Notes under the pieces: generated by a model
Databases searched by the model: none
What the model saw: only the letters and a program-made list of their open reading frames with translations
Told to the model about the DNA's origin: nothing
Shown here: one piece after another, positions 9,101 through 61,135 of the stretch
Layout: each line of letters begins with the position of its first letter
Numbering within the stretch: the first letter of the stretch is position 1
Position numbers and translations under genes: made by a program
NCBI GenBank assembly: GCA_964035545.1
Contig: OZ037765.1
Location: 33,822,504 to 33,886,503, forward strand
Source: Bugula neritina
Lineage: Eukaryota; Bryozoa; Gymnolaemata; Cheilostomatida; Bugulidae
Direction: 5' to 3'
DNA: 64,000 nt

Positions 9101-10670
9101 ATATTCTTGACTCTAGAGCAATAGCGGACAATGATCTTCAACCTGAGTGTAAAAATGTAGCGAGTACATTATAATACAACAACTACTTATTGGTAAAACT
9201 CTGAATAAGTTCAAGTCTCAACAGACCATCCTCACTTGAGTGTTAACTGTAGAAACCTTTGCTATGTATGCAGACAGTTGCTGATGAGATATTATATATA
9301 TATTACAGTATCATTCTACACTATAATATAATACACACCTGTTTGGTAGAGTTTGGAGTCTACAGTACCCCATCTTCAACTCTCTCAATGACAGTAAGGA
9401 TGTGAATATATTCTCAGGTAGACCTTCAGATAGGTTATTATGTGGTATATCCAATACCTCAAGATTCTTCAGTGAAGATATGCTGTAACCGCTGTAACAT
9501 AACACACAGGTATAGAAACACTCTGTAGCTCATACATACAAAGTATGAAAGCAGAGTTTTAAAATATTTTTATAACTCTGTATTTCTACCATCTAACCTA
9601 TAGACAACCTGCTGTTATAATATAATAGTCACTAAATACTAGCTAACAGTATGAATAGTCACTATATATTAGCTAGCAGTATGAATAGTCACTAAATACT
9701 AGTTAGCAGTATGAATAGTCACTAAATACTAGCTAGTAGTATGAATAGTCACTAAATACTAGCTAGTAGTATGAATAGTCACTAAATACTAGCTAGCAGT
9801 ATGAATAGTTATTAAATACTAACTAGCAGTATGAATAGTCACTAAATACTAGCTAGCAGTATGAATAGTTACTAAATACTAGCTAACAGTATGAATAGTC
9901 ACTAAATACTAGTTAGCAGTATGAATAGTCACTAAATACTAGCTAGTAGTATGAATAGTCACTAAATACTAGCTAGTAGTATGAATAGTCACTAAATACT
10001 AGCTAGCAGTATGAATAGTTATTAAATACTAACTAGCAGTATGAATAGTCACTAAATACTAGCTAGCAGTATGAATAGTTACTAAATACTAGCTAGCAGT
10101 ATGAATAGTCACTAAATACTAGCTAGTAGTATGAATAGTCACTAAATACTAGCTAGTAGTATGAATAGTCACTAAATACTAGCTAGTAGTATGAATAGTC
10201 ACTAAATACTAGCTAGCAGTATGAATAGTTATTAAATACTAACTAGCAGTATGAATAGTCACTAAATACTAGCTAGCAGTATGAATAGTTACTAAATACT
10301 AGCTAGCAGTATGAATAGTCACTAAATACTAGCTAGCAGTATGAATATAGTCACTAAATACTAGCTAGCAGTATGAACAGTCACTAAATACTAGCCGGTA
10401 GCATGAATAGGTGAGAGCACTCTGTGTAGTACATATTCCTCTCACTTGTTTATAATATTTTATTGGCAGCATATTTACATATTATATTTATTACAGTATC
10501 ATTCTATACTATAATATAATACACACCTGTTTGGTAGAGTTGACAGTTTACAGTTCCACATGTACAACTCTCTCAATGATAGTAAGGATGTGAATATATT
10601 GTCAGGTAGACCTTCAGATAGGATATTCCCTGATATACTCAATACCTCAAGATTCTTCAGTGAAGATATG
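1..10670 (-). CDS. Gene 1: LRR-Roc-COR-caspase fusion, partial at both ends
   Basis: Spliced minus-strand gene. In transcript order the exons I can place are LRR exons 10527-10670, 9339-9482, 6954-7097 and 6418-6561; the Roc-COR exon 2114-4116; linkers 1919-2014 and 1214-1428; caspase p20 exons 868-1068 and 484-706; and the start of the p20/p10 linker exon, <1-179. All borders are GT/AG and phases agree from exon to exon. The likely role is an intracellular receptor in which LRRs sense a ligand, the Roc GTPase switches state, and the fused caspase is the output; that role is inferred from the domains. The p10 subunit lies beyond the left edge. No exon like the N-terminal ones of gene 2 exists between 10670 and the end of gene 2 at 27409, so the 5' end seems lost or replaced. 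It is more diverged from genes 2 and 3 than they are from each other. Confidence 0.78.
484..706 (-). CDS. Gene 1 caspase p20 catalytic exon (His and Cys)
   Basis: A 223-bp exon, the same length as the matching exons of genes 2 and 3. The acceptor is ATACAG at 707-712 (minus strand) and the donor is GTGAGT just left of 484. It carries both catalytic residues of a caspase: the His in MSHGTSG and the Cys in QACSG. Canonical caspases have SHG and QACRG, so the dyad is intact and close to consensus. The exon enters in phase 0 and leaves in phase 1. Confidence 0.85.
868..1068 (-). CDS. Gene 1 caspase p20 N-terminal exon
   Basis: A 201-bp exon, phase 0 to phase 0, with a strong GTGAGT donor at its 3' end. 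It encodes the first strand of the caspase fold (GRAMIINNGRF, the family's RG.ALIINN.F signature) and a run ending in FDLTRE. The Arg of the RG motif is the expected substrate-pocket residue of caspases. The matching exons of genes 2 and 3 are 171 bp, so gene 1 carries a 10-residue longer loop. Confidence 0.82.
1214..1428 (-). CDS. Gene 1 acidic linker exon
   Basis: A 215-bp exon, phase 1 in and phase 0 out, with donor GTGAGA. The encoded peptide has an acidic stretch (CEDDDISECSDVEEE) followed by KPTTNKEITQLFNEQRK, which matches in position and style the DLSDLSDEDEN...SNSKIKQLFSN peptide of genes 2 and 3. It joins the Roc-COR half to the caspase half. The acidic run may hold caspase cleavage sites; that is inference. 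Confidence 0.75.
1919..2014 (-). CDS. Gene 1 helical linker exon
   Basis: A 96-bp exon entering in phase 1 (it completes the codon begun by the T that ends the Roc-COR exon) and leaving in phase 1. It encodes a short charged, helix-prone peptide (SLAKEEAENLKKFVAELL). Genes 2 and 3 have a 93-bp equivalent. No domain is recognised; the conserved position and phase are the evidence. Confidence 0.7.
2114..4116 (-). CDS. Gene 1 LRR-Roc-COR exon
   Basis: One 2003-bp exon, entered in phase 2 after TTTAACAG and left in phase 1 at a GTGAGT donor. Numbering from the first full codon, residues 1-70 hold the last LRRs (SLPSPVYTLSRLQELDIS). Residues 98-235 are a Roc (Ras-of-complex) GTPase with P-loop GNTMAGKT (104-111), G3 DMGGQE (158-163) and G4-like THKD (227-230). 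A COR domain follows (LPLVWEEVNEKVL near 315, then LTYMHDCGKVLWY). Near the end is a Cys-rich patch (TCYCAHC). Roc-COR modules are GTP-regulated dimerisation devices in ROCO proteins such as LRRK2, MFHAS1 and DAPK1. The reading frame stays open far upstream of the exon, but the true 5' border is the splice site. Confidence 0.9.
4618..5299. mobile_element. MITE with ~40-bp terminal inverted repeats
   Basis: The left end reads TAACCCCTTGTTCACACATT and the right end is its reverse complement with one extra base (GTGTGAACAGGGGGTTA). Similarity continues inward through a GCCGCA...CCGTAAC motif. It lies in the gene 1 intron between the Roc-COR exon and the innermost LRR exon and has no coding capacity. 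No convincing target duplication is visible (TAA against TTA), so the superfamily is uncertain, although PIF/Harbinger-like is possible. Confidence 0.7.
6020..6320. repeat. 30-bp minisatellite array A
   Basis: About ten units of AGTCACTAAATACTAGCTAG + CAGTATGAAT (30 bp), very homogeneous, ending in a GGTGGGAGTACTC flank seen after most arrays. It lies in the intron of gene 1, right after LRR exon 6418 in transcript direction. Confidence 0.95.
6418..6561 (-). CDS. Gene 1 LRR exon (innermost)
   Basis: A 144-bp phase 2-2 exon encoding two 24-residue LRRs, starting SIPSLENLEVLDISENKLS and ending NMNDCKLPTLPN. It is the most divergent of the nine LRR exons (P, E, K and Q substitutions against the SISSLKN...LSEG consensus). 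The donor is GTGTGTA and the acceptor TACAG, as in all copies. A 30-bp minisatellite array lies about 100 bp downstream in the transcript. Confidence 0.8.
6954..7097 (-). CDS. Gene 1 LRR exon
   Basis: A 144-bp phase 2-2 exon with two LRRs. The variable β-strand positions read NMSGN in the first repeat and NMRRC in the second. Splice borders are identical to its paralogues. No minisatellite lies between this exon and the next one downstream (6418). Confidence 0.8.
7411..7643. mobile_element. hAT-like nonautonomous element, copy 1 (decayed ends)
   Basis: About 235 bp, homologous to 8694-8928 and 38223-38458. Ends are degenerate (CAGAGGCGGAC and TTGCCCACTGCT). It shares flanks with the other copies (GAGCTGCAGAG on the left), so it spread with the LRR cassette and not by independent transposition. 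Confidence 0.65.
8694..8928. mobile_element. hAT-like nonautonomous element, copy 2
   Basis: Terminal inverted repeats CAGGGGTGGGCAACT and AGTTGCCCACTCCTG, the classic CAGGGGTGGGCAA end of hAT elements. The interior is AT-rich and noncoding. It is in the intron between LRR exons 9339 and 6954 of gene 1. Confidence 0.75.
9339..9482 (-). CDS. Gene 1 LRR exon with duplicated acceptor
   Basis: A 144-bp phase 2-2 exon with variable positions DIPHN and KMGYC. Its 3' splice site is duplicated: two successive TACAG acceptors lie 9 bp apart. Use of the upstream one would add three residues in frame. The other LRR exons have a single acceptor. Confidence 0.8.
9627..10410. repeat. 30-bp minisatellite array B
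   Basis: About 26 units of the same 30-bp repeat as array A, with several variant units (TAGT for CAGT, TTACTAAATACT, AACTAGCAG). Variants recur in a fixed order over about 10 units, which indicates higher-order duplication. It sits between LRR exons 10527 and 9339. Confidence 0.95.
10527..10670 (-). CDS. Gene 1 LRR exon (outermost found)
   Basis: A 144-bp phase 2-2 exon with variable positions SISGN and YMWNC. The second repeat matches that of the gene 2 exon at 38871. It is the most 5' coding exon of gene 1 that I can find; upstream DNA runs into transposons. A 26-unit minisatellite array follows it in the intron. Confidence 0.8.
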
Positions 10671-18110: not shown

Positions 18111-18141
18111 GTGGTGGCAGCGGTGGGATAGTGCATCCAAG

Positions 18142-23615: not shown

Positions 23616-23886
23616 TTCAAACCATTTCACACATTCAGTATGTCTTACGACAACAGATCGTGGGGTGAGTTAACTATATCTTAATACGAAACTAGATCGC
23701 ATCGCTCAGCTCTGACTCACTGAGTCAATCGAGCTGGAGATAGGTTAGTGAAATACCGTAGTAAGAACTCTAGAGATTTTTATAATCTCATTGCAATACG
23801 TGTTCTATCTGACTATTCACTACCATTAATCTCTACGAGGTAACTGAATTAGGAGTTGCCAAGCTGCTCAAGCTGACAACACAGCA

Positions 23887-24708
23887 GTGTACTGTATTAA
23901 CACTGTTGAAACTTTTTCAGATTACACTCGACCCGCTACAACCAGGGTACGGGATAGAACACTTCCCGCTCCGTATCCGGAGGAGTATGCTAGTGGGGAC
24001 AGGCCTGAGCCACTACGCCGCCGTTGGCGGTGGGTGTCTCCACAAACAGAGGAAGAAATAGAAACGGCCTGGGGGTCCAGAGGACGGACGAGATGCCAGA
24101 TCTGTGGTGAAGATTGCGCCTCTCACCGCTCCCTTAAACTACACGTCAATGCTCATCTCCTACTAACATTCTGCCCCTGCGGGTACAATGATGTGTATCC
24201 CTACCCCGTCACCAGACACCGAGCGGCGGGCTGTTTCCCTGGAGAAAACTATGTGGTCGACGCTAAGCTGTACCCGGAGTTCCTCACACTTATACGACCT
24301 CTGGTGAAGAAGGCCATGCTATTAGCCGTTCTGTCCTCGGGGTTCCAACGTGTGTTAGACAACGCCCGCCAACAATCCCCGTTGGTGTCTGACCGCCCGC
24401 AAATTACATACACCCCCGAGGAAACTACATATCCAGAAGAAGGAGAGATCTCCCCTACCCCGGCGAAGAGACGAACCAGGTCCCCCAGTCCACCCTTACG
24501 CCGCAGACGGACACCGTCCCCAGACCCAGTACGACTAGCCACAGTAGAAGAACGCCTCCTACGACTACAAGAAGAGTTCACCCAGCTGGCACCAGATCTA
24601 CTTAACACTACAACAGGACTCTTCCAGCTAAAAGGATCCGTATGCCGTATGAAACGGAAACTGCGTACATGCCAAGCCAAGCACCGACGTGCCCAACAAG
24701 GACTCTAG
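23887..24708 (+). CDS. Gypsy third ORF with C2H2 zinc finger (no env)
   Basis: 273 codons in the place where env would sit. There is no signal peptide or membrane segment, so it is not an envelope. It has a classic C2H2 finger (C70, C73, H86, H90: CQICGEDCASHRSLKLHVNAH region), a second Cys/His cluster just after (FCPCGYND...H), an RS/Pro-rich basic stretch (RRTRSPSPPLRRRR) that looks like a nuclear-localisation or RNA-binding tract, and a C-terminal helical, possibly coiled-coil region (VEERLLRLQEEF). A strong 3' splice site, CTTTTTCAG, ends at 23920 inside its first codons. Function unknown. Confidence 0.75.
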   Translation: MYCINTVETFSDYTRPATTRVRDRTLPAPYPEEYASGDRPEPLRRRWRWVSPQTEEEIETAWGSRGRTRCQICGEDCASHRSLKLHVNAHLLLTFCPCGYNDVYPYPVTRHRAAGCFPGENYVVDAKLYPEFLTLIRPLVKKAMLLAVLSSGFQRVLDNARQQSPLVSDRPQITYTPEETTYPEEGEISPTPAKRRTRSPSPPLRRRRTPSPDPVRLATVEERLLRLQEEFTQLAPDLLNTTTGLFQLKGSVCRMKRKLRTCQAKHRRAQQGL

Positions 24709-27408: not shown

Positions 27409-28391
27409 TTAGTCATCGCTCCTGTAGCCATTGAACCCAGGAAACAGGTAAAGTTTTCTCATATGAGTGAGAGTATCCCAGACTACAACCAACTGCCCTC
27501 CACTCTCAAAATCCCGATCTACACACAGTTTTCTCACTTTAGTCTGCACCTGAGTAACAATTGAAAATGTTTATAAATAAAGATGCAGTCATCAGTTTTA
27601 TAAATTTATAGACTTTTCAATATAGCAAAGTCATGTATGTATTGGTATCTTTTCAAATGACTAACTGGAAGCAACAGCTGTCAGAATGAATATGAAAGGC
27701 AAATTAATTCCTTAATCATTTAGATCATTTATATTACACATACAACAATTGTTCCAGTAATATTTGAGAGATTTGTTTCAGTCTCGAAGAGTAGATTAGG
27801 TTTGGCTGGGAATTTGAAACTGTATGACTTCTAACTCAATGATATCTAATCACCTCAAGACTCTCATTATGTTATACTTAACTCACTCTCTCATACAGTT
27901 AGTAGACATGCATATCCTAGTGTGGTGTAACTTAGTGCATTAAACCTTCAACATGTCTAACTGTACAATACTACATCTATACTGTATAGTGGGTCACACC
28001 TATACCTGTTTGAATATAGTGTAGAGGTCATGGTGACAGGCATGTTTATACATGGAAGATACAAGAGCTCTAATCATTAGAGATCCATACACAGGATGTC
28101 TCTTTGATATGAATGCTACAAGTAAATTGTATTGTAAGAAGATGCAACTTAGAAATAAGACTCTTTACTAACATAAACCAACATCATATATACAGTGTAA
28201 GACGGTGTGTTACTTACACTCCATGCTAGATTTCACTACTAGCAGGTCATCATAGTTCAGTCTATTCATAGCCTCAGCTTTTTCTAATCTAGGAACTTTA
28301 GCAAGTGGAGGTGAGATACTTTCCATCCCCTCCTTTTGTGATTTTCCTATATCAAATCTGTCTATACCTCTATCACCAAAATCACTCCTCT
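27409..28391 (-). CDS. Gene 2 caspase linker and p10 exons
   Basis: Exons 28218-28391, 28006-28115 and 27409-27549. The first encodes a Pro-containing linker and LNYDDLLVVKSSMEC. The second encodes KRHPVYGSLMIRALVSSMY, the caspase p10 signature where GSW/GSL precedes the large helix. The last ends with LYLFPGFNGYRSDD and TAA at 27409-27411; a FPG motif near the end is typical of p10. Together with p20 this gives a full caspase domain. The donor after the first exon is GTAAGT. Confidence 0.82.
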
Positions 28392-31300
28392 CTGTAAAAG
28401 AGATAACACAACTTATAATTTGATAAAATGATAAATACATTAACTCCAACGCATAGTTTTGTGATTAAATTATAATTTTAGAACAGCTCAAACTTTGGAA
28501 ATACACTGATAGGGTGGTGATACTTTTATTAGAATTGATTAATCTTTTGATATCTTTATCACATATATTATTCAACATTATACATGCCGTTATATTCTAC
28601 TATTAGGAATATCCGCATCAATACTATATTAACGATTTTCAGTATACGACTGTAACTCCTAGAACACTTTTAAGAATGTCCACGCTTCCTGTACTTAATG
28701 CTGCCTGATTTGTCTCCTATTGAACAGGGAGGCGTCCGTGTCAGAGGTCTAGTGAGGCGTCATAAATCATATAGAACAGCGGACTTTGAAAACTTCAGCT
28801 CGGGCACATTGAAAATGGCTGACATTTTACATCACAGCCCACCTTACAGCAAACTGTGTTTAGAGTGTAAAGGGGTACTCGGACCAGTTCAATATTAACT
28901 AAAACTCGGAACATTTTTCATTAAAGGTAAAAGCGAAACTTTATTGAATAAATATCTGGATAATATGTTATGCAAAACGAAACTGTGGAAACAAGAATAG
29001 CATTACCTTTTTGTTGCAATTTTATTAGTTTATTACCTCCACTGCATGTTTCCAGTATAACAACTTTTGGTTTGCCAGCCATTCCTGTGAAATTCAAAGG
29101 GGTCAGAAGGTCATACACATCTGTTAGTTTGACTCGTTTCAGGTCTGTGCCATAGATGTGATTGTTCAGCCCTCCATGAGTCATGATAACCAACACATGA
29201 CATCCCAGATCTGTGTGTTCTTCTTTTTCCACCTCAGATTTTATGGTAGACGGTATTTCCTACATTTGTTTGACATGATGTGACGCAATTTTTATTAGAG
29301 CAGTTTTTGACAATTAATTAAAGCTGTCAAAAATTATTTTTAGATTAAATATGATCATTTTCATCTATTCAACAAAACTGAAGTATCAAACATAAAAAGT
29401 AAAAGACCGATGAAGTTAATTTTGTTTTCAATATTTTTAAAATAAAATACCTCAGCCTTCAAGTCTGTGTGTGTCACAATATCAAACTTGAGAGATTTCA
29501 ACATGGCAGACATATTCTCAACATCTACATCTGAACCTTTTCTACACAAATCTGGTCTCTTATCAAAGTTCATGTTGTTTATTATCAAAGCTCTTCCTCT
29601 TTTTCTGGTCATAGTAAACACCTGAACAGAATATATAACTAGCTACATGTTATATTGACATAGAGGTCATGCAATGCATCTAAACTTGTTGAGTAACAAT
29701 CTGATATTCTAATAACTAGAAACAATGTTTTGAAGTAATTTATTTTACCGTTATTAAACACATGTAATGATTACCCATAGTACATTATAGTACAATTTCT
29801 TCTTCCTGTATACTATCCAACACATTTTATACATGAAATGAAGAATAATATCTACAACTTTGTCAAATGGGAGAATTATTAAATATTAGCATTAGATATG
29901 TAATCACCTTGTCAGTGTTTGAGAACAGCTGCTTTATCTTTGAGTTACTGGTGGGATTCAGTCTGAGTCTTATAAACTTCATCTTTTCAACTTCCTTTCT
30001 ATCAGGGTAGAGATTCTCATCCTCATCAGAGAGATCACTGAGATCTTCATTGGCTATTGCAGAAGTTGTTCCATGATCTGATTGGCTACTGTTTGCAACT
30101 GCAAAGTATAAACATACTGCATTACAAAGGAAAACAAAAGAAACAAGAAATAGCAGACACAGTTTTCTTCTATTGAGGAATAAATATAATTGAAACAGAA
30201 ACTCAATATATTTTAGTTACCAGGTAGAGCTGAGATTTTCTGAGCCCTTCTAACTTTCAGATCTTTTACAAATTCTGTTAACATACAGATTTCTCTGTCC
30301 GACAATGTCTGACCTATACATAACATATTTTTAAATACTTGTAAGTCTCATATTATTGTGGTTCCTTCAAATGATCAAGGGAACACAAAAGTGTGTTACA
30401 TTCGGTGACAATTTGCCCAACACTCATGCAAGAAGAATATAAAATTTTCAAGCCACCAGACATTGATGTAAGTAAACATACATGGGTATAAAAGTGCACT
30501 TGGAATCTCCTCATTGTTGCACAACGTCATTGAAGATCCGCTACACAGTCTGGTACCTGGTGTGAGATGTTTCATGGAACGAAGACACCACGGAGGATTC
30601 AGCACTTTCTTAGGACAAGGAAGTCCTAGCAGAAGGCAGTGAGCGCAGTAGCATGTAGTGACTGGTCTACTTGCTTTCCAAGTTTCTAGAACATGTCTAA
30701 GGATGTTGTTGTTGGTGGTGATGAGTCTCCCCCACATTCTGCTGATGTTGACAGCATTAGATGACACGTAGAGTGACACTTTTCTAGATTTGTAGTCGTG
30801 TACCAGCTGTGTGTAGATACCATCTTGATAGACATTGGCGCCATTTTTCTTCACTTTAACCACAGCAAATTCATCAGGAAAAGACTCCAACAAACCAACT
30901 GTCATTTGGTGGTAGACATAGTGTGGCAGGGCTAGACCATTGAATTTAGTTTCAACTCGAAGAAGCATATTCTTTGGCGAGGAGTAAGAGGTATCGAAGA
31001 GGTCATTAGCAAACTGAGGAACAATAAAACAGGGCTCCTTGGAATCAGCAGGTAAAGGACCATATAACAAACGGAAGGTTTGAAGCAAGCACACAGCAAC
31101 TTCTACGTCTTCCAAACTGGTAAATGATGTTTCTTGTTTAACCAGATGAATGAGAAGGCATTGCATCATCAAACCAGTGTCGGTGAAATGATTAACGAAT
31201 CTCTCAAAGTCCTCTTTTTCAACAGGCATCCCATTCTTTGAAAAATATGGCTGGAACTTGTCAATTCTACTCTGCCAGATATTAGGATCATGATGATACA

Positions 31301-34300
31301 AGACACAGAGAAGTTTGGTAATTTCTGAAATTTTTTGGAATATGTATGGCCTGAGAGAGCTGATATCTTTATACCACAAGACTTTGCCGCAGTCATGCAT
31401 GTATGTGAGGATTACGTCCAGTTGATTTGACTCAATGTGTCGAAGTTCTGTTTGTAAATGTTTCAGTATCTCATCGAAGGTGCTGTAAACAGAGGGAATA
31501 GACAGCACTTTTTCATTTACTTCTTCCCAAACCAGAGGTAAAGGTTTTACAAAATTTTGACTGCTTTGAAGAAGAGACTCTTTGATCAGGTCAAACACTT
31601 CATACTGATCATCTTTCCCCACCTCATAAATGTCCTCACCAGAAAAAACTCCTTCAGTTGATTCACTGAAATGTTTGATTTGAGCAAACTCTCCACCCAA
31701 TGCTTTCTCTTCCCTGATCATCTCTTCACACAGTTGATTGGAAGTTTTAAGAAAAACTCTTTGAAGCTTTTGGAACTCTGTACTTTGAAACTTATCTTTA
31801 TGTGTGAAGATAAGTTTTGGAGCACCAAGAGTTGGGTTAGCCAGATAGAGGTGAGACATGTAATCAAAGGCTAATCTTCTAACAGCTTCTCTGTGTGTTG
31901 ATTCTCTTGAAATCTCATCATACTGCTCCATGTTGACTACTATGACTGGAATACAGTTCTGTCTCAGTGTCAGTTGATAGGTGATATGGTAGACCTCCTG
32001 GCCTCCCATATCAATGACACGGAGTACTGTACCATCCACCTCCACCTCTTCAACATTAAACACCTTTGTTGTCTCATCTCTCACAGCATCTGGCCTTCTG
32101 TTGGTCAGAACTCTCTTTCTGTCAGCATTCTGTAATGTTCTGATCAGACTGGTCTTCCCAGCCATCGTATTACCCAGCACAGCTATAGTAGCAAATGGAA
32201 GACTTCTACCAGCACCTCTAGCCAAGTCTGTGTAGTATTGTGTCACAGCATCTACTCCTCTCTCACATACTTCTAGTGGAGGAGATGTGAGAGCATTACA
32301 ATTTTTAACATCCAGTGTACAAAGTTGAGTTAGTTGTAATATCTCAGGATCTAAGGATGTCAGGGAGTAGTTGGAGGATATATCCAGTTTCTGCAGACTA
32401 CTCAGTGTGTACACAGGAGATGGTAAACTGGTAAAGTTATTTGATGATATGTGCAGCTCCTCTAATTTCTGCAGACTCTGCATGCTGAGAGAAATACAAA
32501 TACTGTTTTGGTATGAAAATAAATAATATAATTCTATAATATACTCTCTAATATATACCATTATAATGAATATATAAAATGCTCTCGATTACCATTATAA
32601 TGAATATTTAGGATTCTGCTATTATATTTATAGCTTTTTGTATAGATTTTATAGCTGTTAGGAGTTATACTCCCAGGTATTTGATGTAAGTTGGAGCAAG
32701 TAAATGATACAATGCATCACACAGTAACTATGGATTGACTGCCATTATGATATATCTCAGTATATCATTATATATATAAAAATAATATATAATATATATA
32801 TATATCTATATTATAATAATATATTATATATTATATATATATATTTATATATATAAAAATATATATATATATTTATATATATATACATATATATAAATAT
32901 ATATTTATATATATATTATAATATTATATACTATTATATATTATATTATTATATTATACCTTATATTATATACTTTTATACATTATATTATATATATAAT
33001 AATACTATATACAATATATATATATATTTATATATATAAATATATTGTAATATTATATATAATATATATATATATTCATATATATATATATATGTATATA
33101 GATATATATATATATATTAATATATATATTATAATAATATATTATATACTACTGTATATTATAATATTATATATTTTATTATATTATATTATATATTATT
33201 ATATATTATTATATCATATATTATATATTATATTATTTATATATGATATATATATAATAATAATATAAATAATATATATATATTATATATATTATATATA
33301 TATATATATTATTAATGCCAAATATTTACTACAAATTTCAAAAATAACATAAATTAAGTAGTATTACTATGCCTATTTGCATCCAATTTACTAGTCTTAA
33401 ATTTATAGCAACTGTAACGTATTTCGTGTAAAATGGTTATTGCAAGCATTATTTAATTCATATTCACATTGTAATCACAGCAAAGCTTAAACTTTATAGC
33501 TTTGTATTCACATGAATGAGTGAGTTTTAATTTTTCTTTTAATTTTATGTGCATTGAAAATGTGTTTAAAAACTTCACTAATAAACAAAACTAAAAAAAA
33601 TGTACACATAAAATAGAAAAAAATAAAATAACAAAAGTGGCAAAATATTTCCTTCATAAGACTTCCTAAAGTCAACACCCCTAACGTATACCACTCTGCT
33701 TCATCACTGGTTATAACTGGTGAAGAGTAGAAGCTAACTGTTGTTGCAGCAACATCACATAACTGTAGTTGTAATGCTGCTACACTTATCCTCACTGAAC
33801 AGTGATTATTAGTTTTTAGACGCTACAATTTATTTATTTTGGTACAATGTATATTCTATATGTGCAATTTATTTGAATATTATTGAAATGTATGTATATT
33901 TAAACAAACTTGAATCAGTTGTTCCTTATTTAGCACATAAATAAATTCATTTTATCTGCATTAACTTATTAATTTTGCATTTTCCATACTTCTTGTTGTT
34001 GAAAAAATATTTTGTTAATAGCTAGTCATTAAAAATACTGCCTATTATTAACTTTTTACAGTTTTTTGACCCACACGAATCTGTGAAAAGTGGGCTAGTA
34101 TTTCAAATACTTCATATTGGCTATTATAGGAACGCCTGATGTGGCCCTCCAGCCGCCATTTGCCCATCTCTGTTCTATACTATAATATATTACACACCTG
34201 TTTGGCAGAGCTGACAGTTCACAGCTCTCCATGTTCAACTCTCTCAATGATAGTAAGGATGTGAATATATTGTCAAGTAGATCTTCAGATAGGATATTCT

Positions 34301-37300
34301 CTGATATATCCAATACCTCAAGATTCTTCAGTGAAGATATGCTGTAGCATAACATACAGGTATAGAAACACTCTGTAGCTCATAAGTACAAAGTGTGATA
34401 ACAGAGTTTTAGAATATTATTATGACTCAGTATTTCTACCATCTAATCTCTAGACAGCCTGCTGTTATAATCTATTAAATCCCACTCCACACTAAATAGT
34501 AGCTAGCAGTATGAATAGTCATTAAATACTAACTAGCAGTATGAATAGTCACTAAATATTAGCTAGCAGTATGAATAGTCACTAAATACTAGCTAACAGT
34601 ATGAATAGTCACTAAATACTAGCTAGCAGTATGAATAGTCACTAAATACTAGCTAGCAGTATGAATAGTTACTAAATACTAGCTAGCAGTATGAATAGTC
34701 ACTAAATACTAGCTAACAGTATGAATAGTCACTAAATACTAGCTAGCAGTATGAATAGTCACTAAATACTAGCTAGCAGTATGAATAGTTACTAAATACT
34801 AGCTAGCAGTATGAATAGTCACTAAATACTAGCTAACAGTATGAATAGTCACTAAATACTAGCTAGCAGTATGAATAGTCACTAAATACTAGCTAGCAGT
34901 ATGAATAGTCACTAAGTACTAGCTAGCAGTATGAATAGTCACTAAATACTAGCTAGCAGTATGAATAGTCACTAAATACTAGCTAGCAGTATGAATAGGT
35001 GGGAGTACTCTGTGTAGTGTATATTTCCCTCACTTGTTTACCATGATCAGCTATTATATATACTACAGTATCATTCTACACTATGATATAATACACACCT
35101 GTTTGGTAGAGTTGGTAGTTTACAGTCACTCATGTGCAACTCTCTCAATGATAGTAAGGATGTGAATATATTGTCAGGTAGACCTTCAGATAGGTTATTA
35201 TATGACATATGCAATACCTCAAGATTCTTCAGTGAAGATATGCTGTAACATAACATACAGGTATAGAAACACTCTGTAGCTCATAAGTACAAAGTGTGAT
35301 AACAGAGTTTTAGAATATTATTATGACTCAGTATTTCTACCATCTAATCTCTAGACAGCCTGCTGTTATAATCTATTAAATCCCACTCCACACTAAATAG
35401 TAGCTAGCAGTATGAATAGTCACTAAATACTAGCTAACAGTATGAATAGTCACTAAATACTAGCTAGCAGTATGAATAGTCACTAAATACTAGCTAGCAG
35501 TATGAATAGTTACTAAATACTAGCTAGCAGTATGAATAGTCACTAAATACTAGCTAACAGTATGAATAGTCACTAAATACTAGCTAGCAGTATGAATAGT
35601 CACTAAATACTAGCTAGCAGTATGAATAGTCACTAAATACTAGCTAACAGTATGAATCGTCACTAAATACTAGTTAACAGTATGAATAGTCACTAAATAC
35701 TAGCTAGCAGTATGAATAGTTACTAAATACTAGCTAGCAGTATGAATAGTCACTAAATACTAGCTAACAGTATGAATAGTCACTAAATACTAGCTAACAG
35801 TATGAATAGTCACTAAATACTAGCTAACAGTATGAATAGTCACTAAATACTAGCTAGCAGTATGAATAGTCACTAACTACTAGCTAACAGTATGAATCGT
35901 CACTAAATACTAGCTAACAGTATGAATAGTCGCTAAATACTAGCTAGCAGTATGAATAGTTACTAAATACTAGCTAGCAGTATGAATAGTCACTAAATAC
36001 TAGCTAGCAGTATGAATAGTCACTAAATACTAGCTAGCAGTATGAATAGTCACTAAATACTAGCTAACAGTATGAATAGTCACTAAATACTAGCTAACAG
36101 TATGAATAGTCACTAAATACTAGCTAGCAGTATGAATAGTCACTAAGTACTAGCTAGCAGTATGAATAGTCACTAAGTACTAGCTAGCAGTATGAATAAT
36201 CACTAAATACTAGCTAGCAGTATGAATAGTCACTAAATACTAGCTAACAGTATGAATAGGTGGGAGTACTCTGTGTAGTGTATATTCCCCTCACTTGTTT
36301 ACCATGAGATATTATATATATTGCAGTATCATTCTACACTATGATATAATACACACCTGTTTGGTAGAGTTGACAGTTCACAGTAACTCATGTTCAACTC
36401 TCTCAATGATGGTAAGGATGTGAATATATTGTCAGGTAGACCTTCAGATAGGTTATTCCCTGATATATTCAATACCTCAAGATTCTTCAGTGAAGATATG
36501 CTGTAACATAACATACAGATATAGAAACACTCTGTAGTTCATACATACAAAGTGTGATAACAGAGTTTTAGAATATTATTATGACTCTGTATTTCTATCA
36601 TCTAACCTCTAGACAACCTTGGGCATAGCAGTTGTATTATGATGAGTGACAATTAAGGAAAAGCTATTATAATGAAAGAGTAGAAAAATCTTTTAAACCC
36701 AAACCCCAAACCTCAAACCCCTACCTCAATAACCCTTATTTATTGAAAATATAGGCAATTTGTTACTTACTTTACCATTTGTGTCATTATTACCGGTGCC
36801 ATTATTACCGGTGCCATTATTACCGGTGCCATTATTACCGGTGCCATTTTTACCAGGCACTGTATACACTATATTACCATACTCATACAGTTTAATTTCC
36901 TTGCTGAATATCGCTATGGGGGTGTTAAAAAGACCACACTTTTATTTAGCCATGTTACAGAGAGAACTTTGACTACTATAAATAACTCTAAATAAGTCAC
37001 TCTGTCTACCAGAAGAAGAAGTATATAATTCCATCACAGTATTAACTTATATCAGTTACAGAACAGTATATCTACACCAGATGTTGCAGGTTTGGAGAAA
37101 TAACCTCCAGATATTGTGAGCTGCCAAACTCTTACTACTTCCTTCAAGATTGCAAATAATATTATAAAAACTGAGTGCCCATATAGCAAATTATTATTTC
37201 ACAATTTGTACCCTCAGCATACAAAGCTGGAGTAGTGACTGTATTTTAGAAAGTTAACATGACTCTGTATTTCTGGCATCTAACCTTTAGACAACCTTGA

Positions 37301-40300
37301 GTATAACAGTAGTATAGGTAATTGTGGTATGACAGTGTGGGTTAGATTAGAGAGAAGATAATTCTAATATACAAAAGTAGTAGTTTCTTATATAGCCTAA
37401 ATACTAGCAAGTCATAGACTGAGAACTAAACAGACAAGAATATCAGTCAGTAAGAATGACTGAGTTACCAATAAGGTAGTATATATATATGATGCTATGA
37501 TAAATTGATTATGGGATATTATATATATTACAGTATCATTCTACACTATAATATATTACACACCTGTTTGGTAGAGTTGACAGTTTACAGCCCCACATGT
37601 ACAACTTTCTCAATGATAGTAAGGATGTGAATATATTGTCAGGTAGACCTTCAGATAGGTTATTATCTGATATATTCAATACCTCAAGATTCTTCAGTGA
37701 AGATATGCTGTAACATAACATACAGGTATAGAAACACTCTGTAGCTCATACATACAAAGTGTGATAACAGAGTTTTAGAATAATAAATATTATGAGTCTG
37801 CATTTCTGCTGTCTAACCTCAAGACGACCTTGGTCATAGCATTTTATGTTGTGTTAGTTGCAGTTATTATATCTATGCTGTAGAGACTACACTCAGTTGA
37901 GGGCTACAAACTACATCTTATATATATACAGAATATGACATCATACAGTTGCCATACATCATATGATTCATGCAGTAATAACAAACAACTCTATTGCACG
38001 CAGTAAACATTCAAAACATTACATGGCAGTTGTATAATGAGTAACAATGAGGAGATAACTACTATGATGAAGAAGTAAAAAGCACACTTTATATATAACC
38101 TAGGAACTAGTAAATCATAGACTGAGAATAAACACAGTCAGGTAGCAGTGACTGAAAGAGTAATTAGTAAATGTTGGAATAAGTTTTGTTACAGTTTGGT
38201 TTGAGCTGCAGAGTCCCTATGGCAGGGGTGGACAACAGGGGCTCCCTAGGGCCACTTGTGGCTCTTTGCCCACTTTTAGTGGCCCTTTTAATGCTCAAGA
38301 TAAGTAATAACTGTCATTTTTATTCTGATTAGCACAGCATAGGTTTGGTGACAAATTACTTTATTATAATAAAGTTTATTATGTGTACAATCATGTGGCC
38401 CTTCGCTTTGGCTGACGTCTGAACTTGGCCCTCGAGCAAAATAAGTTGCCCACCCTTGTCCTATGACATGACAGTAGTATGAGAGACAGTGTAGGTTAGA
38501 TTAGAGAAAATATAACTTTAATAAACATAGAAAGTAGTTTACTATATTATATCCTAAATACTAGCAAACTGTAGCCTGAGCACTGAATAAGTTGAAAGGC
38601 TATAGTTGTGTTTTAATATAATTTTGAATAGTCTTGACTCTAGAGCAATGAAAGACCATGATATTCAACTTGAGAGTAAAAATGTAGCGAGTACATTATA
38701 ATACAACAACTACTTATTGGTAAAACTCTGAATAAGTTCAAGTCTCAACAGACCATCCTCACTAGAGTGTAACTGTAGAAACCTTTGCTATGTATGCAGA
38801 CAGTTACTGAGTTACTGTTGAGATATTATATATATGACAGTATCATTCTACACTATAATATAATACACACCTGTTTGGTAGAGTTGACAGTTTACAGTTC
38901 CACATGTACAACTTTCTCAATGATAGTAAGGATGTGAATATATTGTCAGGTAGACCTTCAGATAGGATATTATATGATATATCCAATATCTCAAGATTCT
39001 TCAGTGAAGATATGCTGTAACATAACATACAGGTATACAAACACTCTGTAGCTCATACATACAAAGTGTAATAACAGAGTTTTATAATATTGTTATGACT
39101 CTGTATTTCTACCACCTAACCTGTAGACAACCCGCTGTTATAATATATTAAATCTCACTCTACAATAAATACTAGCTAACAGTATGAATAGTCACTAAAT
39201 ACTAGCTAACAGTATGAATAGTCACTAAATACTAGCTAGCAGTATGAATAGTCACTAAATACTAGCTAGCAGTATGAATAGTCACTAAATACTAGCTAGC
39301 AGTATGAATAGTCACTAAATACTAGCTAGCAGTATGAATAATCACTAAATACTAGCTAGCAGTATGAATAGTCACTAAATACTAGCTAGCAGTATGAATA
39401 GTCACTAAATACTAGCTAGCAGTATGAATAATCACTAAATACTAGCTAGCAGTATGAATAGTCACTAAATACTAGCTAGCAGTATATATGAATAGTCACT
39501 AAATACTAGCTAGCAGTATGAATAGTCATTAAATACTAGCTAGCAGTATGAATAGTCACTAAATACTAGCTAGCAGTATGAATAGTCACTAAATACTAGC
39601 TAGCAGTATGAATAGTCACTGAATACTAGCTAGCAGTATGAATATAGTCACTAAATACTAGCTAGCAGTATGAATAGTCACTAAATACTAGCTAGCAGTA
39701 TAAATAGTCACTAAATACTTATAGCTAGCAGTATGAATATAGTCACTAAATACTAGCTAGCAGTATGCTACATGGATGTGTTAAATCAGAACCTGTGATA
39801 CTTAATAATATGACCATAATGTAATACTACCATAACAATATAGTACCTGGTCCAGTCAGCATTACTGTCTACTTTAGATACCCTCAGATGTGTGAGATGA
39901 GGAAACAGTTTGTTGATATTTGGAGGAATGTTATTCTCCAGTCTAACATGAGTCACTGTATGATGTCTATTTATATCATTGATCTCTTCTATAGTGTAGG
40001 ATGTAGTATCATTCTTCATCCACTCATCACCAGCTCCATCTATACTGGATGTGTTGAACCACACTTCGTACTTCTCTACAAAATATGCACCACTTTATAA
40101 ATAATAACTTTGATATCAAATGATAGAGTGTCTCAACACTATATAAACAGTATTGAATTAAACATGGAGAGTTCACAACTCCAAACTACATACTAACTTC
40201 AGTTGTTATATCAAAGGAGCAGACTGATAATATAATACATATGACTCAGTATAGTCTTCAAACACCTTCTAATATTCTCTATAATATATAATAGTAACTG

Positions 40301-41005
40301 GAAGTCACTTGTATCTCTAGACTCAGCACCAGCAAAGTATGTACAGAACACCTTGATTCTAGTATCTGTAATACTAGTTATATTCTCTTCTATATATAAA
40401 AGTAGTAAAAATCTAGTAATATCTGTAATACTAGTTATATTCCCTTCTATAGAAATAGAGAAAGTTATATCAAGAACAACAAGAAAAATCTAGTAGTAAC
40501 TTGATGCATATAACAGCATCATCTGTTTGGCTGAAAACACCAACCAATGGGGACTGACTAAACAAATACTCACATCATAGGCCCCTACAAGTGGTTTGAC
40601 ATGAGGCCATACAAAGTAGCTGTGTTATACAAAATGTAATAATGGTCACAGAATATCTATTCATGTAATTTACTATAACTTCTCCCAGACTCACCTGGTG
40701 ACTGAGTTAGAGGTGGAGTCACAAATTGAGTTGGAGGCGGAGTTACAGGCTGACATACATTAAGATTAATATATCCCGTGAGAAATGCTCTGAAGATCTG
40801 TATTTGATATTTGCTTACCTTCCACAGTTGAAGTTGAGGATGGAGCTCGAGGCGGAGTCACAGACTGAGCTGGAGGCGGAGTCACAGACTGAGCTGGAGG
40901 CGGAGTCACAGACTGAGATGGAGGCGGAGTCACAGACTGAGATGGAGGCGGAGTCACAGACTGAGCTGGAGGCGGAGTCACAGACTGAGCCTCTGAATCA
41001 CTCAT
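27409..41005 (-). CDS. Gene 2: LRR-Roc-COR-caspase fusion, complete model
   Basis: Full exon chain in transcript order: start exon 40819-41005; LRR-cap exon 39847-40075; LRR exons 38871-39014, 37564-37707, 36357-36500, 35099-35242 and 34198-34341; Roc-COR 30482-32484; linkers 30221-30313 and 29908-30098; caspase p20 29451-29621 and 29037-29259; linker/p10 28218-28391 and 28006-28115; last exon 27409-27549 ending in TAA. Every junction is GT/AG and every phase matches, which argues strongly that this is one gene. No signal peptide or membrane segment is visible, so the product should be cytosolic. Expected action: ligand sensing by LRRs, GTP-controlled Roc-COR dimerisation, and activation of the fused caspase without an adaptor. 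The parts are known families; the combined pathway is inference. An optional small exon, 40695-40749, is discussed separately. Confidence 0.82.
29037..29621 (-). CDS. Gene 2 caspase p20 exons
   Basis: Exons 29451-29621 (171 bp) and 29037-29259 (223 bp). The first encodes RKRGRALIINNMNF, the N-terminal strand of caspases with the pocket Arg. The second carries the catalytic His in MTHGG and the catalytic Cys in ETCSGG. Compared with the consensus SHG and QACRG, the dyad is present but the flanking residues differ (T for S, E for Q, T for A, S for R), so substrate preference or activity may be changed. Gene 1 has the closer-to-consensus SHG and QACSG. Confidence 0.85.
29908..30313 (-). CDS. Gene 2 linker exons between COR and caspase
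   Basis: Two exons: 30221-30313 (93 bp, phase 1 to 1) and 29908-30098 (191 bp, phase 1 to 0). The first encodes a charged helical peptide (EFVKDLKVRRAQKIS). The second encodes a Ser-rich then acidic stretch (DLSDLSDEDENLYPD) and then KIKQLFSNTDK. The acidic Asp-rich segment just before the caspase fold resembles a prodomain cleavage region (inference). No known fold is recognised. Confidence 0.75.
30482..32484 (-). CDS. Gene 2 LRR-Roc-COR exon
   Basis: 2003 bp, the same length as gene 1's exon. It enters after TTTCTCAG in phase 2 and leaves in phase 1 at GTATGT. It encodes terminal LRRs (LPSPVYTLSSLQKLDIS), then Roc with P-loop GNTMAGKT, G3 DMGGQE and G4 THKD, then COR (LPLVWEEVNEKVL and LTYMHDCGKVLWYKDISSL), and the Cys-rich CYCAHC...PCP patch. 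All nucleotide-binding motifs are intact. The frame is open for about 80 bases past the acceptor, which could tempt one to place a start there, but the splice junction and phase match to the LRR exons favour an internal exon. Confidence 0.9.
32740..33320. repeat. AT-only low-complexity tract
   Basis: About 580 bp almost entirely A and T, rich in (TA)n and self-complementary runs, in the gene 2 intron between the last LRR exon and the Roc-COR exon. Likely unstable and cruciform-prone. Confidence 0.9.
33321..34197. other. Intron sequence without recognised features
   Basis: AT-rich intron of gene 2. The minus-strand open frame at 33508-33795 has no family signature and is interrupted by low complexity; I do not support it as a gene. 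Confidence 0.6.
34198..34341 (-). CDS. Gene 2 LRR exon 5
   Basis: A 144-bp phase 2-2 exon with variable positions DISEN and NMESC. It splices (phase 2) onto the Roc-COR exon at 32484 across an intron containing a long (TA)n tract. Confidence 0.82.
34490..34998. repeat. 30-bp minisatellite array C
   Basis: About 17 units of the 30-bp repeat. A run of four units (CAGT/CAGT/TTACT/AACAGT variants) repeats three times, a higher-order pattern. It is flanked by gene 2 LRR exons 35099 and 34198. Confidence 0.95.
35099..35242 (-). CDS. Gene 2 LRR exon 4
   Basis: A 144-bp phase 2-2 exon with variable positions HMSYN and HMSDC. The intron stretch just upstream of it (35262-35410) is essentially identical to the one upstream of LRR exon 5 (34361-34510), so this exon-plus-intron cassette duplicated recently. 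Confidence 0.82.
35390..36259. repeat. 30-bp minisatellite array D (longest)
   Basis: About 29 units between gene 2 LRR exons 36357 and 35099, with the same variant types as array C plus GAATCGTCAC variants at two places. The right end has the usual GGTGGGAGTACTC flank. Confidence 0.95.
36357..36500 (-). CDS. Gene 2 LRR exon 3
   Basis: A 144-bp phase 2-2 exon with variable positions NISGN and NMSYC, and a unique LPSLRELN. It is followed in the transcript, about 100 bp on, by the longest 30-bp minisatellite array. Confidence 0.82.
36780..36858. repeat. Short 15-bp repeat run related to the 55.6-kb array
   Basis: Four to five units of ATTACCGGTGCCATT. Followed by GTGCCATTTTTACCAGGCAC, which also occurs, with small changes, near 11075 and beside the large array at 55.6 kb (opposite strand). 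Confidence 0.8.
37564..37707 (-). CDS. Gene 2 LRR exon 2
   Basis: A 144-bp phase 2-2 exon with variable positions NISDN and YMWGC. The following intron has no 30-bp array but holds a short run of 15-bp repeats near 36785. Confidence 0.82.
38223..38458. mobile_element. hAT-like nonautonomous element, copy 3
   Basis: About 236 bp with CAGGGGTGGACAAC and GTTGCCCACCCTTG ends. It has the same left flank (GAGCTGCAGAGTCCCTATGG) and right flank (CCTATGACATGACAGTAG) as the copies in gene 1, which shows the flanking TCCTATGA-like 8-mer duplication of a single ancestral insertion. Confidence 0.72.
38871..39014 (-). CDS. Gene 2 LRR exon 1
   Basis: A 144-bp phase 2-2 exon with two 24-residue LRRs. Variable positions are LDISYN and YMWNC. 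The first repeat has LEIL where the others have LEVL. Donor GTGTGTA, acceptor TACAG. Confidence 0.82.
39163..39768. repeat. 30-bp minisatellite array E
   Basis: About 20 units between the LRR-cap exon 39847 and LRR exon 38871 of gene 2. Contains a few 32-bp units with an inserted AT (GAATATAGTCAC), which are also present near the end of array B. Confidence 0.95.
39847..40075 (-). CDS. Gene 2 LRR N-terminal cap exon
   Basis: A 229-bp exon, phase 1 in and phase 2 out, so it joins any of the LRR exons. It encodes KYEVWFNTSSIDGAGDEW and then two degenerate LRR-like strands (VTHVRLENNIPPNI and LTHLRVSKV). It is the only cap-type exon in the window; gene 1 has none. A minisatellite array begins about 80 bp downstream in the intron. 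Confidence 0.72.
40695..40749 (-). CDS. Possible alternative Pro-rich mini-exon
   Basis: A 55-bp segment with acceptor GTCAG and donor GTGAGT. Read in phase 0 it continues the same motif (VTPPPTQFVTPPLTQSP) and exits in phase 1, fitting exon 39847. The preceding exon however ends in phase 1, so including this exon would shift the frame, while skipping it keeps the frame. It may be an alternative first-exon partner or a relic. Confidence 0.35.
40819..41005 (-). CDS. Gene 2 start exon, Pro-rich octapeptide repeats
   Basis: The ATG at 41003-41005 has A at -3. The exon encodes MSDSEAQSVTPPP, then repeats of an 8-residue unit (AQSVTPPP or SQSVTPPP, six in all) from a 24-bp tandem DNA repeat, then a Ser/Thr tail. 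The donor is GTAAGC after GTGGAAG, leaving phase 1, which matches the entry phase of the LRR-cap exon at 39847. The region is probably disordered. Copy number of the 24-bp unit is likely polymorphic. I chose this ATG because the upstream frame has no further recognisable coding sequence. Confidence 0.65.
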
Positions 41006-49446: not shown

Positions 49447-49518
49447 TGGTGTCAGGATATTAGAACTGCCTGCCAGGGGTAATTGGATATGTCTGTGACA
49501 GTAAGTAATAGATAAACT

Positions 49519-55610: not shown

Positions 55611-55616
55611 AAAATA

Positions 55617-58925: not shown

Positions 58926-61135
58926 TTAGGAGTCGCCTTCTCTCCTGTAGCCATTAAACCCAGGAAACAGGTAAAGTTTTCTCATATGAGTGAGAGTATC
59001 CCAGACTACAACCAACTGTCCTCCACTCTCAAAATCCCGATCTACACACAGTTTTCTCACTTTAGTCTGCACCTGAGTAACAGTTGAAAATGTATATATA
59101 TAAAGATGCAGTCATCAGTTTTATAAATTCACAGGCTTTTCAATATAGCAAAGTCATGTATGTATTGGTATCTTTTCAAATGACTAACTCGAAGCAACAG
59201 CTGTTAGAATGAATATGAAAGGCAAATAAATTCCTTAATCATTTAGATCATTTATATTACACATACAATTGTTCCAGTAATATTTGAGAGATTTGTTTCA
59301 GTCTAGAAGAGTATAGATTAGGTTTGAATGGGAATTTGAAGCTGTATGACTTCTAACTCAATGATATCTAATCACCTCAAGACTCTCATTATGATATACT
59401 TAACTCACTCTCTCATACAGTTAGTAGACATGCATATCTTAGTGAGGTGTAACTTACTGCATTAAACCTTCAACATGTCTAACTGCACAATACTACATCT
59501 ACTGTATAGTGGATCACACCTACCTGTTTGAATATAGTGTAGAGGTCATGGTGACAGGCATGTTTATACATGGAGGATACAAGAGCTCTAATCATTAGAG
59601 ATCCATACACAGGATGTCTCTTTGATATGAATGCTACAAGTAAATTGTATAACAGGAAGATGCAAAATAGAAATGAGACTCTTTGCCAACATAAACAAAT
59701 ATCATATATACAGTGTAAGATAGTGTGTGTTACTTACACTCCATGCTAGATTTCACTACTAGCAGGTCATCATAGTTCAGTCTAGTCATAGCCTCAGCAT
59801 TCTCTAATCTAGGAACTTTGGCAGGTGGGGGTGAGATACATTCAGACTCTTCTCTTTGCGGCTTCCCGATATCAAATCTGTCTATACCTCTATGGCCATA
59901 GTCACTTCTCTCTGTAAAAGAGATAACACAACTTTATAGTTTGATAAAATGATAAATAAACTAACTCCAACTCATAGTTTTGTGATTAAATTATAATTTT
60001 AGAACAGCTTAAACTTTGGAAATACACTGATAGGGTGGTGATACTTTTATTAGAATTGATTAATCTGTTGATATCTTTATCACATATATTATTCAACACT
60101 ATACATGCCGTTATATTCTACTATTAGGAATATCCGCATCAATACTATATTAACGATTTTCAGTACAACTGTAACTCCTAGAACACTTTTAAGAATGTCC
60201 ACGCTTCCTGTACAATGCTGCGGTACGTCAGGGTCAAGCACTGCCTGATTTGTCTCCTATTGAACAGGGAGGCGTCCGTGTCAGAGGTCTAGTGAGGCGT
60301 CATAAATCATATAGAACAGCGGACTTTAAAAACTTTAGCTCGGGCACATTGAAAATGGCTGACATTTTACATCACAGCCCACCTTACAGCAAACTGTGTT
60401 TAGAGTGTAAAGGGGTACTCAGACCAGTTCAATATTAACTAAAACTCGGAACATTTTTCATTAAAGGTAAAAGCGAAACTTTATTGAATAAATATCTGGA
60501 TAACAAGAATAGCATTACCTTTTTGTTGCAATTTTATTACAGTTTATTACCTCCACTGCATGTTTCCAGTATAACAACTTTTGGTTTGCCAGCCATTCCT
60601 GTGAAATTCAAAGGGGTCAGAAGGTCATACACATCTGTTAGTTTGACTCGTTTCAGGTCTGTGCCATAGATGTGATTGTTCAGCCCTCCATGAGTCATGA
60701 TAACCAACACATGACATCCCAGATCTGTGTGTTCTTCTTTTTCCACCTCAGATTTTATGGTAGACGGTATTTCCTACATTTGTTTGACATGATGTGACGC
60801 AATTTTTATTAGAGCAGTTTTTGACAATTAATTAAAGCTGTCAAAAATTATTTTTAGATTAAATATGATCATTTTCATCTATTCAACAAAACTGAAGTAT
60901 CAAACATAAAAAGTAAAAGACCGATGAAGTTAATTTTGTTTTCAATGTTTTTAAAATAAGATACCTCAGCCTTCAAGTCTGTGTGTGTCACAATATCAAA
61001 CTTGAGACATTTCAACATGGCAGACATATTCTCAACATCTACATCTGAACCTTTTCTACACAAATCTGGTCTCTTATCAAAGTTCATGTTGTTTATTATC
61101 AGAGCTCTTCCTCTTTTTCCGGTCATAGTAAACAC
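58926..61135 (-). CDS. Gene 3 caspase exons (p20 and p10)
   Basis: Exons 60965-61135, 60551-60773, 59738-59911, 59524-59633 and 58926-59072. They encode GKRGRALIINNMNF, catalytic His in MTHGG, catalytic Cys in ETCSGG, a linker with RGIDRFDIG, and p10 with VYGSLMIRALVSSMY and FPGFNG. The linker exon shows more replacements relative to gene 2 (for example GHRG for GDRG, PQREESE for SQKEGME) than the catalytic exons, which fits a loosely constrained cleavable linker. Confidence 0.8.

Follow-up and report, generated by a model that had tools for sequence, protein, structure and literature searches.

Does a stretch of DNA near the end of chromosome 1 of the bryozoan Bugula neritina encode a receptor, a GTPase switch and a caspase on a single polypeptide? 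The question is raised by a window of 64,000 nucleotides (the whole stretch analysed; GenBank assembly GCA_964035545.1, tzBugNeri2.1, contig OZ037765.1, positions 33,822,504 to 33,886,503). Within it, a minus-strand gene designated copy B joins leucine-rich repeats (LRRs), a Roc GTPase domain, a COR domain and a caspase, and two truncated relatives, copies A and C, lie at the window edges. From the sequence comparisons described below, copy B probably belongs to a large family of bryozoan immune-type receptors, single-polypeptide ROCO-caspases that would be activated by dimerisation.

Copy B and its family in two bryozoans

Copy B is read as 15 exons running from 41005 to 27412, followed by a TAA stop at 27411-27409 (Table 1). 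The spliced reading of the window sequence contains 1413 codons and no internal stop; all 14 introns are GT-AG and the exon phases are compatible throughout. The order is a low-complexity start, a cap, five LRR cassettes (144 bp each, phase 2-2, two LRRs per cassette), a large LRR-Roc-COR exon, two linker exons and five caspase exons. By this exon structure, copy B is a predicted LRR-Roc-COR-caspase gene. An initial annotation, made from the letters of the window, had described such a phase-compatible chain, and the chain stands; the two linker exons went unnamed in it, and its implied sponge origin is wrong. An extra small exon tried after exon 1 (40749-40695) was dropped, as it breaks the frame (132 stops). 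The cap encoded by exon 2 shows weak similarity to the N-termini of three of five compared proteins from Watersipora subatra, another cheilostome bryozoan (P0001, P0027 and P0023; E-values 4.7e-6 to 7.6e-4 in the five-sequence set).

Pfam recognised Roc (PF08477) in copy B at 29.8 bits (cut-off 27), where the sequence carries the G motifs GNTMAGKT, DMGGQE and THKD. The LRRs matched LRR_4 at 28.5 and LRR_8 at 27.2 bits (cut-offs 27), and Peptidase_C14 (PF00656) was found in the two p20 exons at 40.1 and 38.8 bits (cut-off 21.4). COR-A remained below its cut-off (15.7 versus 35.3 bits), as did COR in the W. subatra scans, and a COR assignment by Pfam alone was rejected. An AlphaFold model of the LRR-Roc-COR exon, built with 24 sequences in the alignment (predicted local distance difference test, pLDDT, 84.8; predicted template modelling score, pTM, 0.83), matched LRRK1 (8e05, E-value 2.7e-21) and the C. 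tepidum Roco LRR-Roc-COR crystal structure (6hlu, 7.3e-21) over nearly the whole length, with 3dpu, 3dpt and LRRK2 as further fold matches. Because the model follows LRRK1 and the C. tepidum Roco almost end to end, the predicted fold supports a COR domain directly after Roc. The Pfam check suggested in the initial annotation thus succeeded for Roc and Peptidase_C14 and failed for COR, for which the fold provides the support.

The spliced caspase of copy B matched 192 PDB sequences at E <= 0.01 (best 3.3e-24), and the best 60 of these 192 were all caspases, CED-3 among them. Aligned to CED-3 over p20 and p10, it retains the catalytic residues, His and Cys, as well as the S1-pocket Arg of p20 and that of p10. 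No CARD, DED or other death-fold prodomain scored above cut-off in the scanned frames of copy B, a set that excludes linker exon 1 and both p10 exons, nor did any death-fold domain in the nine of 12 W. subatra proteins scanned whole. P0001 gave one sub-threshold Death_EDAR match, 17 residues within its LRRs at 17.4 bits (cut-off 27). Pfam scans of the copy B frames and of nine of the 12 W. subatra proteins returned neither NACHT nor NB-ARC. The predicted nucleotide switch of these proteins is Roc.

Genome-wide, 66 Roc-COR exons were found in Bugula, 64 of them stop-free. A caspase lies no more than 6 kb downstream of at least 51 of the 66, on the same strand in 51 of 51 and upstream in none among the matches listed, the caspase set for this count being the 150 listed of 176 genome matches. 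When the exons were shifted by up to 1 Mb in 1000 draws, the mean was 1.2 and the maximum 6. The adjacency of Roc-COR and caspase is beyond chance. Five more loci (L027, L028, L043, L034/L054 and L044/L055) have caspase exons in their downstream DNA, which brings the total to at least 56 of 66; the downstream DNA of the other 10 lay outside the inspection.

Copies A and C are truncated by the window edges. No p10 was found for copy A within the window, whose edge cuts this copy. Copy C keeps the exon phases of copy B as far as its stop; a 2363-aa open frame at its Roc-COR exon is an artefact, the DNA upstream reading N. The two copies bear out the argument of the initial annotation that further copies exclude a one-off artefact.

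The family extends to W. subatra. The NCBI protein P0001 aligns with copy B over 1296 columns at 34% identity, from the LRRs via the linker to near the last caspase residue. A search among long proteins with the linker-caspase part of P0001 returned 11 matches including the query, each a W. subatra protein carrying Peptidase_C14; NCBI names several of them MFHAS1-like, and 11 of 11 align to the Roc-COR exon of the window at 29-37% identity. Four matches, every one a W. subatra protein, came from the linker-caspase part of copy B; the Roc-COR-caspase part as a whole gave 20, with Peptidase_C14 in one, P0001. A structural model of P0022 matches LRRK1/CtRoco and caspase-3, -6, -8 and -9, at a mean pLDDT of only 69.5 and a pTM of 0.54. 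Protein searches, which admit only candidates of fitting length that have exact words in common with the query, yielded no fusion outside Bryozoa; given that restriction, the absence is provisional.

Two observations by eye concern the ends of the W. subatra proteins. P0028 (1869 aa) continues after LRR-Roc-COR-caspase into six fibronectin III matches and a hydrophobic C-terminus, which could reflect either a merged gene model or a membrane form. The N-termini of P0023 (MGAKS) and P0024 (MGCSL) resemble myristoylation signals, so some family members may sit at membranes.

Variation in the receptor face and the caspase tail

Pairwise comparison of the nine LRR cassettes in copies A and B gives, per pair, 12.0 nonsynonymous and 1.5 synonymous changes. 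The outward positions of LxxLxLxx strands are ligand-facing under the standard LRR rule. Ten such positions on the two strands, chosen by this rule but fixed after the alignment had been viewed, show 7.2 nonsynonymous and 0.3 synonymous changes per pair, a ratio of nonsynonymous to synonymous proportions (pN/pS) of 5.6, against 1.3 elsewhere. These 10 of 47 LRR positions hold 60% of the amino-acid change, a share reached in 0 of 20,000 random position draws. By gene, the pN/pS of the face is 9.8 in copy B and 4.1 in copy A, and L022 has 5.3 nonsynonymous versus 0 synonymous changes per pair. The more diverged, distant genes L021 (0.72) and L018 (0.30) lack a face excess, and the pattern as a general property beyond the cluster of the window is rejected on their account; when L018 is left out, a pool of 15 cassettes has a ratio of 3.3 at the face positions and 0.5 at the others. 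The aligned cassettes show amino-acid change concentrated on the LRR strand face in copies A and B.

The effector end varies in a different manner. Three caspase tail types occur in Bugula: type 1, type 2 and a third in one gene (L055). Roc-COR exons with type 2 tails are mostly 84-90% identical to that of copy B at the protein level (L046 81%, L052 70%), whereas their p20 exons are only 32-46% identical to those of copy B. Mapped onto a tree of 34 Roc-COR exons, the tail types, three in all, require six changes against a minimum of two, or seven against three with the outgroup as a fourth label; starred branches alone force four changes for type 1 and three for type 2. In locus pairs with unlike tails (6 of 6), DNA similarity of 87-94% stops no more than about ten bases from where the Roc-COR exon ends. 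In pairs with like tails, similarity is found again in the tail (3 of 3) and in two runs on continuously past the exon; in the pair L026-L032 it resumes after a break of about 200 bases. This pattern indicates that predicted receptor halves reassort with two caspase tail types, through either movement of the caspases or conversion of the Roc-COR exons. In a caspase tree of 17 rows, which omits four of 12 W. subatra proteins missed by the start pattern, Bugula type 2 groups with W. subatra sequences (92/88, not starred, with long branches present). Because of this grouping, the two tail types may predate the Bugula-Watersipora split.

A wider proposal is advanced tentatively, at a confidence somewhat below that given to the reading as dimerisation-activated receptors. 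Cheilostomes may run a fast-evolving repertoire of one-chain inflammasomes, in which LRR cassettes undergo duplication and exchange, perhaps with the aid of an intronic minisatellite specific to the cluster, and receptor halves are joined to varied caspase tails by recombination at the Roc-COR exon border. Sensors and death enzymes would then be mixed independently, as an animal counterpart of bacterial LRR-Roc-COR-effector systems.

Candidate function, rival readings and precedents

These proteins would most likely work as follows. In the cytosol, the LRRs would recognise a variable ligand of microbial, viral or other non-self origin; this would shift the nucleotide state of Roc, and Roc-COR would dimerise as in other Roco proteins. 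The dimer would pair the attached initiator-type caspases and activate them by proximity. Once paired, the caspases would free themselves by cleavage at Asp residues between p20 and p10 and would trigger cell death or a different proteolytic response. The net design would be a one-chain inflammasome for which a CARD or death-domain adaptor is unneeded. Initiator caspases are known to activate when brought together. Roco proteins cycle between monomer and dimer with nucleotide, according to passages of PMC6337361. In the bryozoan proteins, GTP binding and hydrolysis, nucleotide-dependent dimerisation and Asp-specific protease activity are putative.

Several points weigh against this reading. 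The ROCO-caspase chain in Bugula is a prediction from genomic sequence alone; protein searches returned no near-identical protein for the Bugula genes, hence no support from Bugula annotation. The W. subatra fusions are predictions too, in the form of annotated gene models. Roc exceeds the Pfam cut-off in one of eight W. subatra fusions scanned (P0027) and is below it or absent in seven, which adds to the sub-threshold COR scores noted above. An AATAAA within copy B intron 29907-29622, between linker and caspase, makes transcripts ending ahead of the caspase possible. The face excess is missing from L018 and L021, and expanded families can also serve development or self-recognition.

The last point belongs to the rival that survives best, although it is still unlikely: a genuine fusion whose role lies in colony self/non-self recognition or in cell death during development (polypide regression), not in microbial defence. 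Variable LRRs and reassorting effector tails would also suit allorecognition, and bryozoans are colonial and regularly resorb their polypides. Pathogen receptors typically expand in clusters and change on the LRR face, a signature that allorecognition genes have as well. Favouring defence, bacterial proteins of like layout are predicted, in the passages of PMC8195603 drawn on here, to act against invaders.

A less probable rival makes the caspase a regulatory or scaffold module, with signalling through the GTPase. It gains from the loss of the catalytic Cys in two of the 16 distinct Bugula genes with readable p20 exons (L019 Ser, L055 Tyr; counted by eye), and members lacking this residue may be decoys or regulators. 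However, all 16 keep His and 14 keep Cys, and catalytic His, Cys and p20 Arg are all kept in 12 of 12 W. subatra proteins (the 11 above and the shorter P0031). The p20 exons are also about as constrained as Roc-COR. The median ratio of nonsynonymous to synonymous rates (dN/dS), from gene pairs that are non-independent and with the duplicates L021/L051 and L035/L053 counted once, is 0.21 for Roc-COR (34 genes), 0.18 (19 genes) and 0.24 (12 genes) for type 1 p20 exons, 0.17 for one type 2 p20 exon (14 genes), and 0.44 (15 type 1 genes) and 0.37 (8 type 2 genes) for linker exon 2. These ratios show purifying selection on the Roc-COR and caspase exons and constraint on linker exon 2. An enzymatic caspase attached to a Roc-COR receptor is the reading retained here.

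Some members depart from the common pattern. The P-loop pattern is intact in 10 of 12 W. subatra proteins, the others being P0029 and P0031, and the p10 S1-pocket position holds Lys in P0001 and, by eye, in P0024. In Bugula, L055 (C1:32584500-32590000) carries the third caspase tail type, with ETYKGG placing Tyr at the catalytic Cys, behind a stop-free Roc-COR exon, and is likely a pseudocaspase. Retroelement-like open frames, identified by eye, stand close behind the type 2 p20 exon of L054 (C1:34565200-34570700) and possibly interrupt that gene.

Two adjacent genes, a ROCO receptor and a caspase always in tandem and perhaps co-regulated but with no shared transcript, which is the outcome that the initial annotation had set against its own claim, are very improbable: the rival has on its side a Roc-COR exon that, read past its donor, stops at 30396, the AATAAA in the intron ahead of the caspase, and a fusion read from genomic DNA, but is opposed by two linker exons whose phase and splice sites are conserved between copies B and C, by the constraint on linker exon 2 behind both tail types, by 11 fused W. 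subatra models that cross the linker in annotation, one aligned through it, and by strand and order constant in 51 of 51 cases among the matches listed.

A layout without any precedent was rejected. In passages of PMC8195603, bacterial LRR-AP-GTPase-COR proteins are described with a C-terminal slot that holds at least 24 kinds of domain, including TIR, trypsin and caspase; a counter-invader role is predicted, and one genome may hold several paralogues with different effectors. Compared by published description, the order of LRR, Roc-type GTPase, COR and effector is shared with the bryozoan proteins, which differ in their animal host, in a caspase with both p20 and p10, and in tails that vary within one effector family. 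No bacterial fusion with Peptidase_C14 was among the matches of the protein searches made here. Ten passages of PMC8195603 on AP-GTPases and caspase domains mention no animal caspase in such a setting, and no description of an animal LRR-Roc-COR-caspase was found in the open PMC literature searched. The initial annotation knew of no described ROCO-caspase; the searches found none for animals either, but the layout is described in bacteria. Family size, tail reassortment, the LRR selection pattern and the intronic minisatellite were absent from that annotation.

Other relatives share parts of the design. MFHAS1 (MASL1) and other LRR-Roc-COR ROCO proteins have the same domain order, Roc motifs and fold; MFHAS1 consists of LRR and RocCOR only, as a passage of PMC6337361 describes it, and the bryozoan proteins add a linker and a caspase. 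The brown algal LRR-ROCO genes described in parts of PMC11378527 likewise duplicate and shuffle phase-2 LRR exons under diversifying selection, with a proposed immune role, but their exons are 72 bp with one LRR and no other domain, in contrast to the 144-bp, two-LRR bryozoan cassettes. Sea anemone and bacterial ROCO-TIR proteins (parts of PMC5094078) and a Lingula ROCO-CARD protein also couple LRR-GTPase-COR to an immunity or death domain; they carry TIR or CARD instead of a caspase, and a CARD would require a separate caspase. The Lingula anatina protein, P0008, has an odd domain order and may be a merged gene model. It and P0009, an unnamed protein that combines LRRs with the peptidase domain CHAT (PF12770), are possible parallels with an adaptor or another protease. 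DAPK1 is likewise a Roc-COR protein tied to cell death, and differs by its kinase and death domain and lack of LRRs (a passage of PMC6337361). Amphioxus caspases with new death-fold combinations have been described (parts of PMC3196919), and a term search of the main text of the Flustra genome paper (PMC13326412) found none of caspase, immun- and apopto-.

In the prevailing view, animal sensors are coupled to caspases by adaptors and oligomers. NLR (NOD-like receptor) inflammasomes and CED-4/Apaf-1 apoptosomes combine a sensor, a nucleotide switch, oligomerisation and caspase activation, and DAPK1 has no caspase. In the predicted bryozoan proteins, unlike these assemblies, sensor, switch and caspase stand on one chain, with no NACHT, NB-ARC or death-fold domain above cut-off in the scans. 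Each part belongs to a known family, and the layout has a bacterial precedent; the animal version, with its two-subunit caspase, expansion and tail reassortment, appears new. If true, the predicted one-chain layout would couple danger sensing directly to protein cutting. Such an arrangement, occurring in dozens of copies and in two bryozoan species, would be new to animal innate immunity or self-recognition and would echo the bacterial one. It would also offer a simple system for testing whether Roco dimerisation can drive an enzyme directly, and provide a case of an animal genome in which modules for sensing and for effect reassort.

Features of the window

Table 1. Coordinates of copies A, B and C and of the minisatellite within the 64,000-nucleotide window
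Feature	Position	Strand	Basis or remarks
Copy B exon 1	40819..41005	-	Start codon and 24-bp-unit repeat coding QSVTPPP, low-complexity N-terminus; ATG choice assumed
Copy B exon 2	39847..40075	-	N-terminal cap ahead of LRRs; splice reading
Copy B LRR cassette 1	38871..39014	-	144 bp, phase 2-2, two LRRs
Copy B LRR cassette 2	37564..37707	-	Splice reading, cassette alignment
Copy B LRR cassette 3	36357..36500	-	Splice reading, cassette alignment
Copy B LRR cassette 4	35099..35242	-	Splice reading, cassette alignment
Copy B LRR cassette 5	34198..34341	-	Pfam scan, splice reading, cassette alignment
Copy B large exon: last LRRs, Roc GTPase, COR	30482..32484	-	Pfam, AlphaFold model, fold match
Copy B linker exon 1	30221..30313	-	Splice reading, alignment to W. 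subatra
Copy B linker exon 2	29908..30098	-	Acidic SDLSDEDE motif, similar in W. subatra P0001; median dN/dS 0.44, 15 genes
Copy B caspase p20, first part	29451..29621	-	S1-pocket Arg; Pfam, CED-3 alignment
Copy B caspase p20, second part	29037..29259	-	Catalytic His (MTHGG), Cys (ETCSG); Pfam, CED-3 alignment
Copy B p20-p10 interdomain linker	28218..28391	-	Several Asp
Copy B caspase p10, first part	28006..28115	-	ISKRHPVYGSLMIRAL; CED-3 alignment
Copy B caspase p10, last exon and stop TAA	27409..27549	-	Splice reading
Copy A LRR cassettes	6418..10670	-	10670-10527, 9482-9339, 7097-6954, 6561-6418
Copy A LRR-Roc-COR exon	2114..4116	-	87.9% nucleotide identity to copy B, 4 gap positions
Copy A linker and p20 exons, divergent type 2 caspase	482..1387	-	About 1387-1214, 1074-907, 706-482; SHG, QACSG
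Copy C overall; Roc-COR exon from 62005, cut by window edge	58926..64000	-	Similarity to copy B, exon phases
Copy C later exons	61836-61744, 61612-61422, 61135-60965, 60773-60551, 59911-59738, 59633-59524, last from 59072 to stop	-	
30-bp minisatellite	6022..6320	.	Intron between last LRR cassette and Roc-COR exon of copy A
30-bp minisatellite	9624..10410	.	Intron between two LRR cassettes of copy A
30-bp minisatellite	34490..36259	.	Introns flanking LRR cassette 4 of copy B on both sides
30-bp minisatellite	39166..39767	.	Intron ahead of first LRR cassette of copy B

Introns of the LRR blocks in copies A and B are filled by a minisatellite with the unit CACTAAATACTAGCTAGCAGTATGAATAGT. The exact unit has 169 copies in the genome; 165 of the 169 are listed, all in chromosome 1 at 33.83-34.97 Mb, a cluster of many ROCO-caspase genes, and none of these 165 places is in another ROCO-caspase cluster such as that on C6. 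Its orientation flips between 33.83-34.01 Mb and 34.83-34.97 Mb; the Roc-COR exons found are on the minus strand in the former interval and on the plus strand in the latter. The minisatellite may help unequal exchange of LRR cassettes, or may merely ride along with duplications.

The remaining DNA of the window includes a GC-rich block at 18109-24705 (0.52-0.57 up to 24000, versus about 0.34) with long plus-strand open frames, which by eye looks like a long terminal repeat retroelement. Retroelement-like open frames, also named by eye, occur at 42730-46332 and 49516-52414, one with a PHD-like start and one gag/integrase-like. At 55613-56307 lie 46 copies of the 15-bp unit AATACCGGCACAGGT, with 99% matches.

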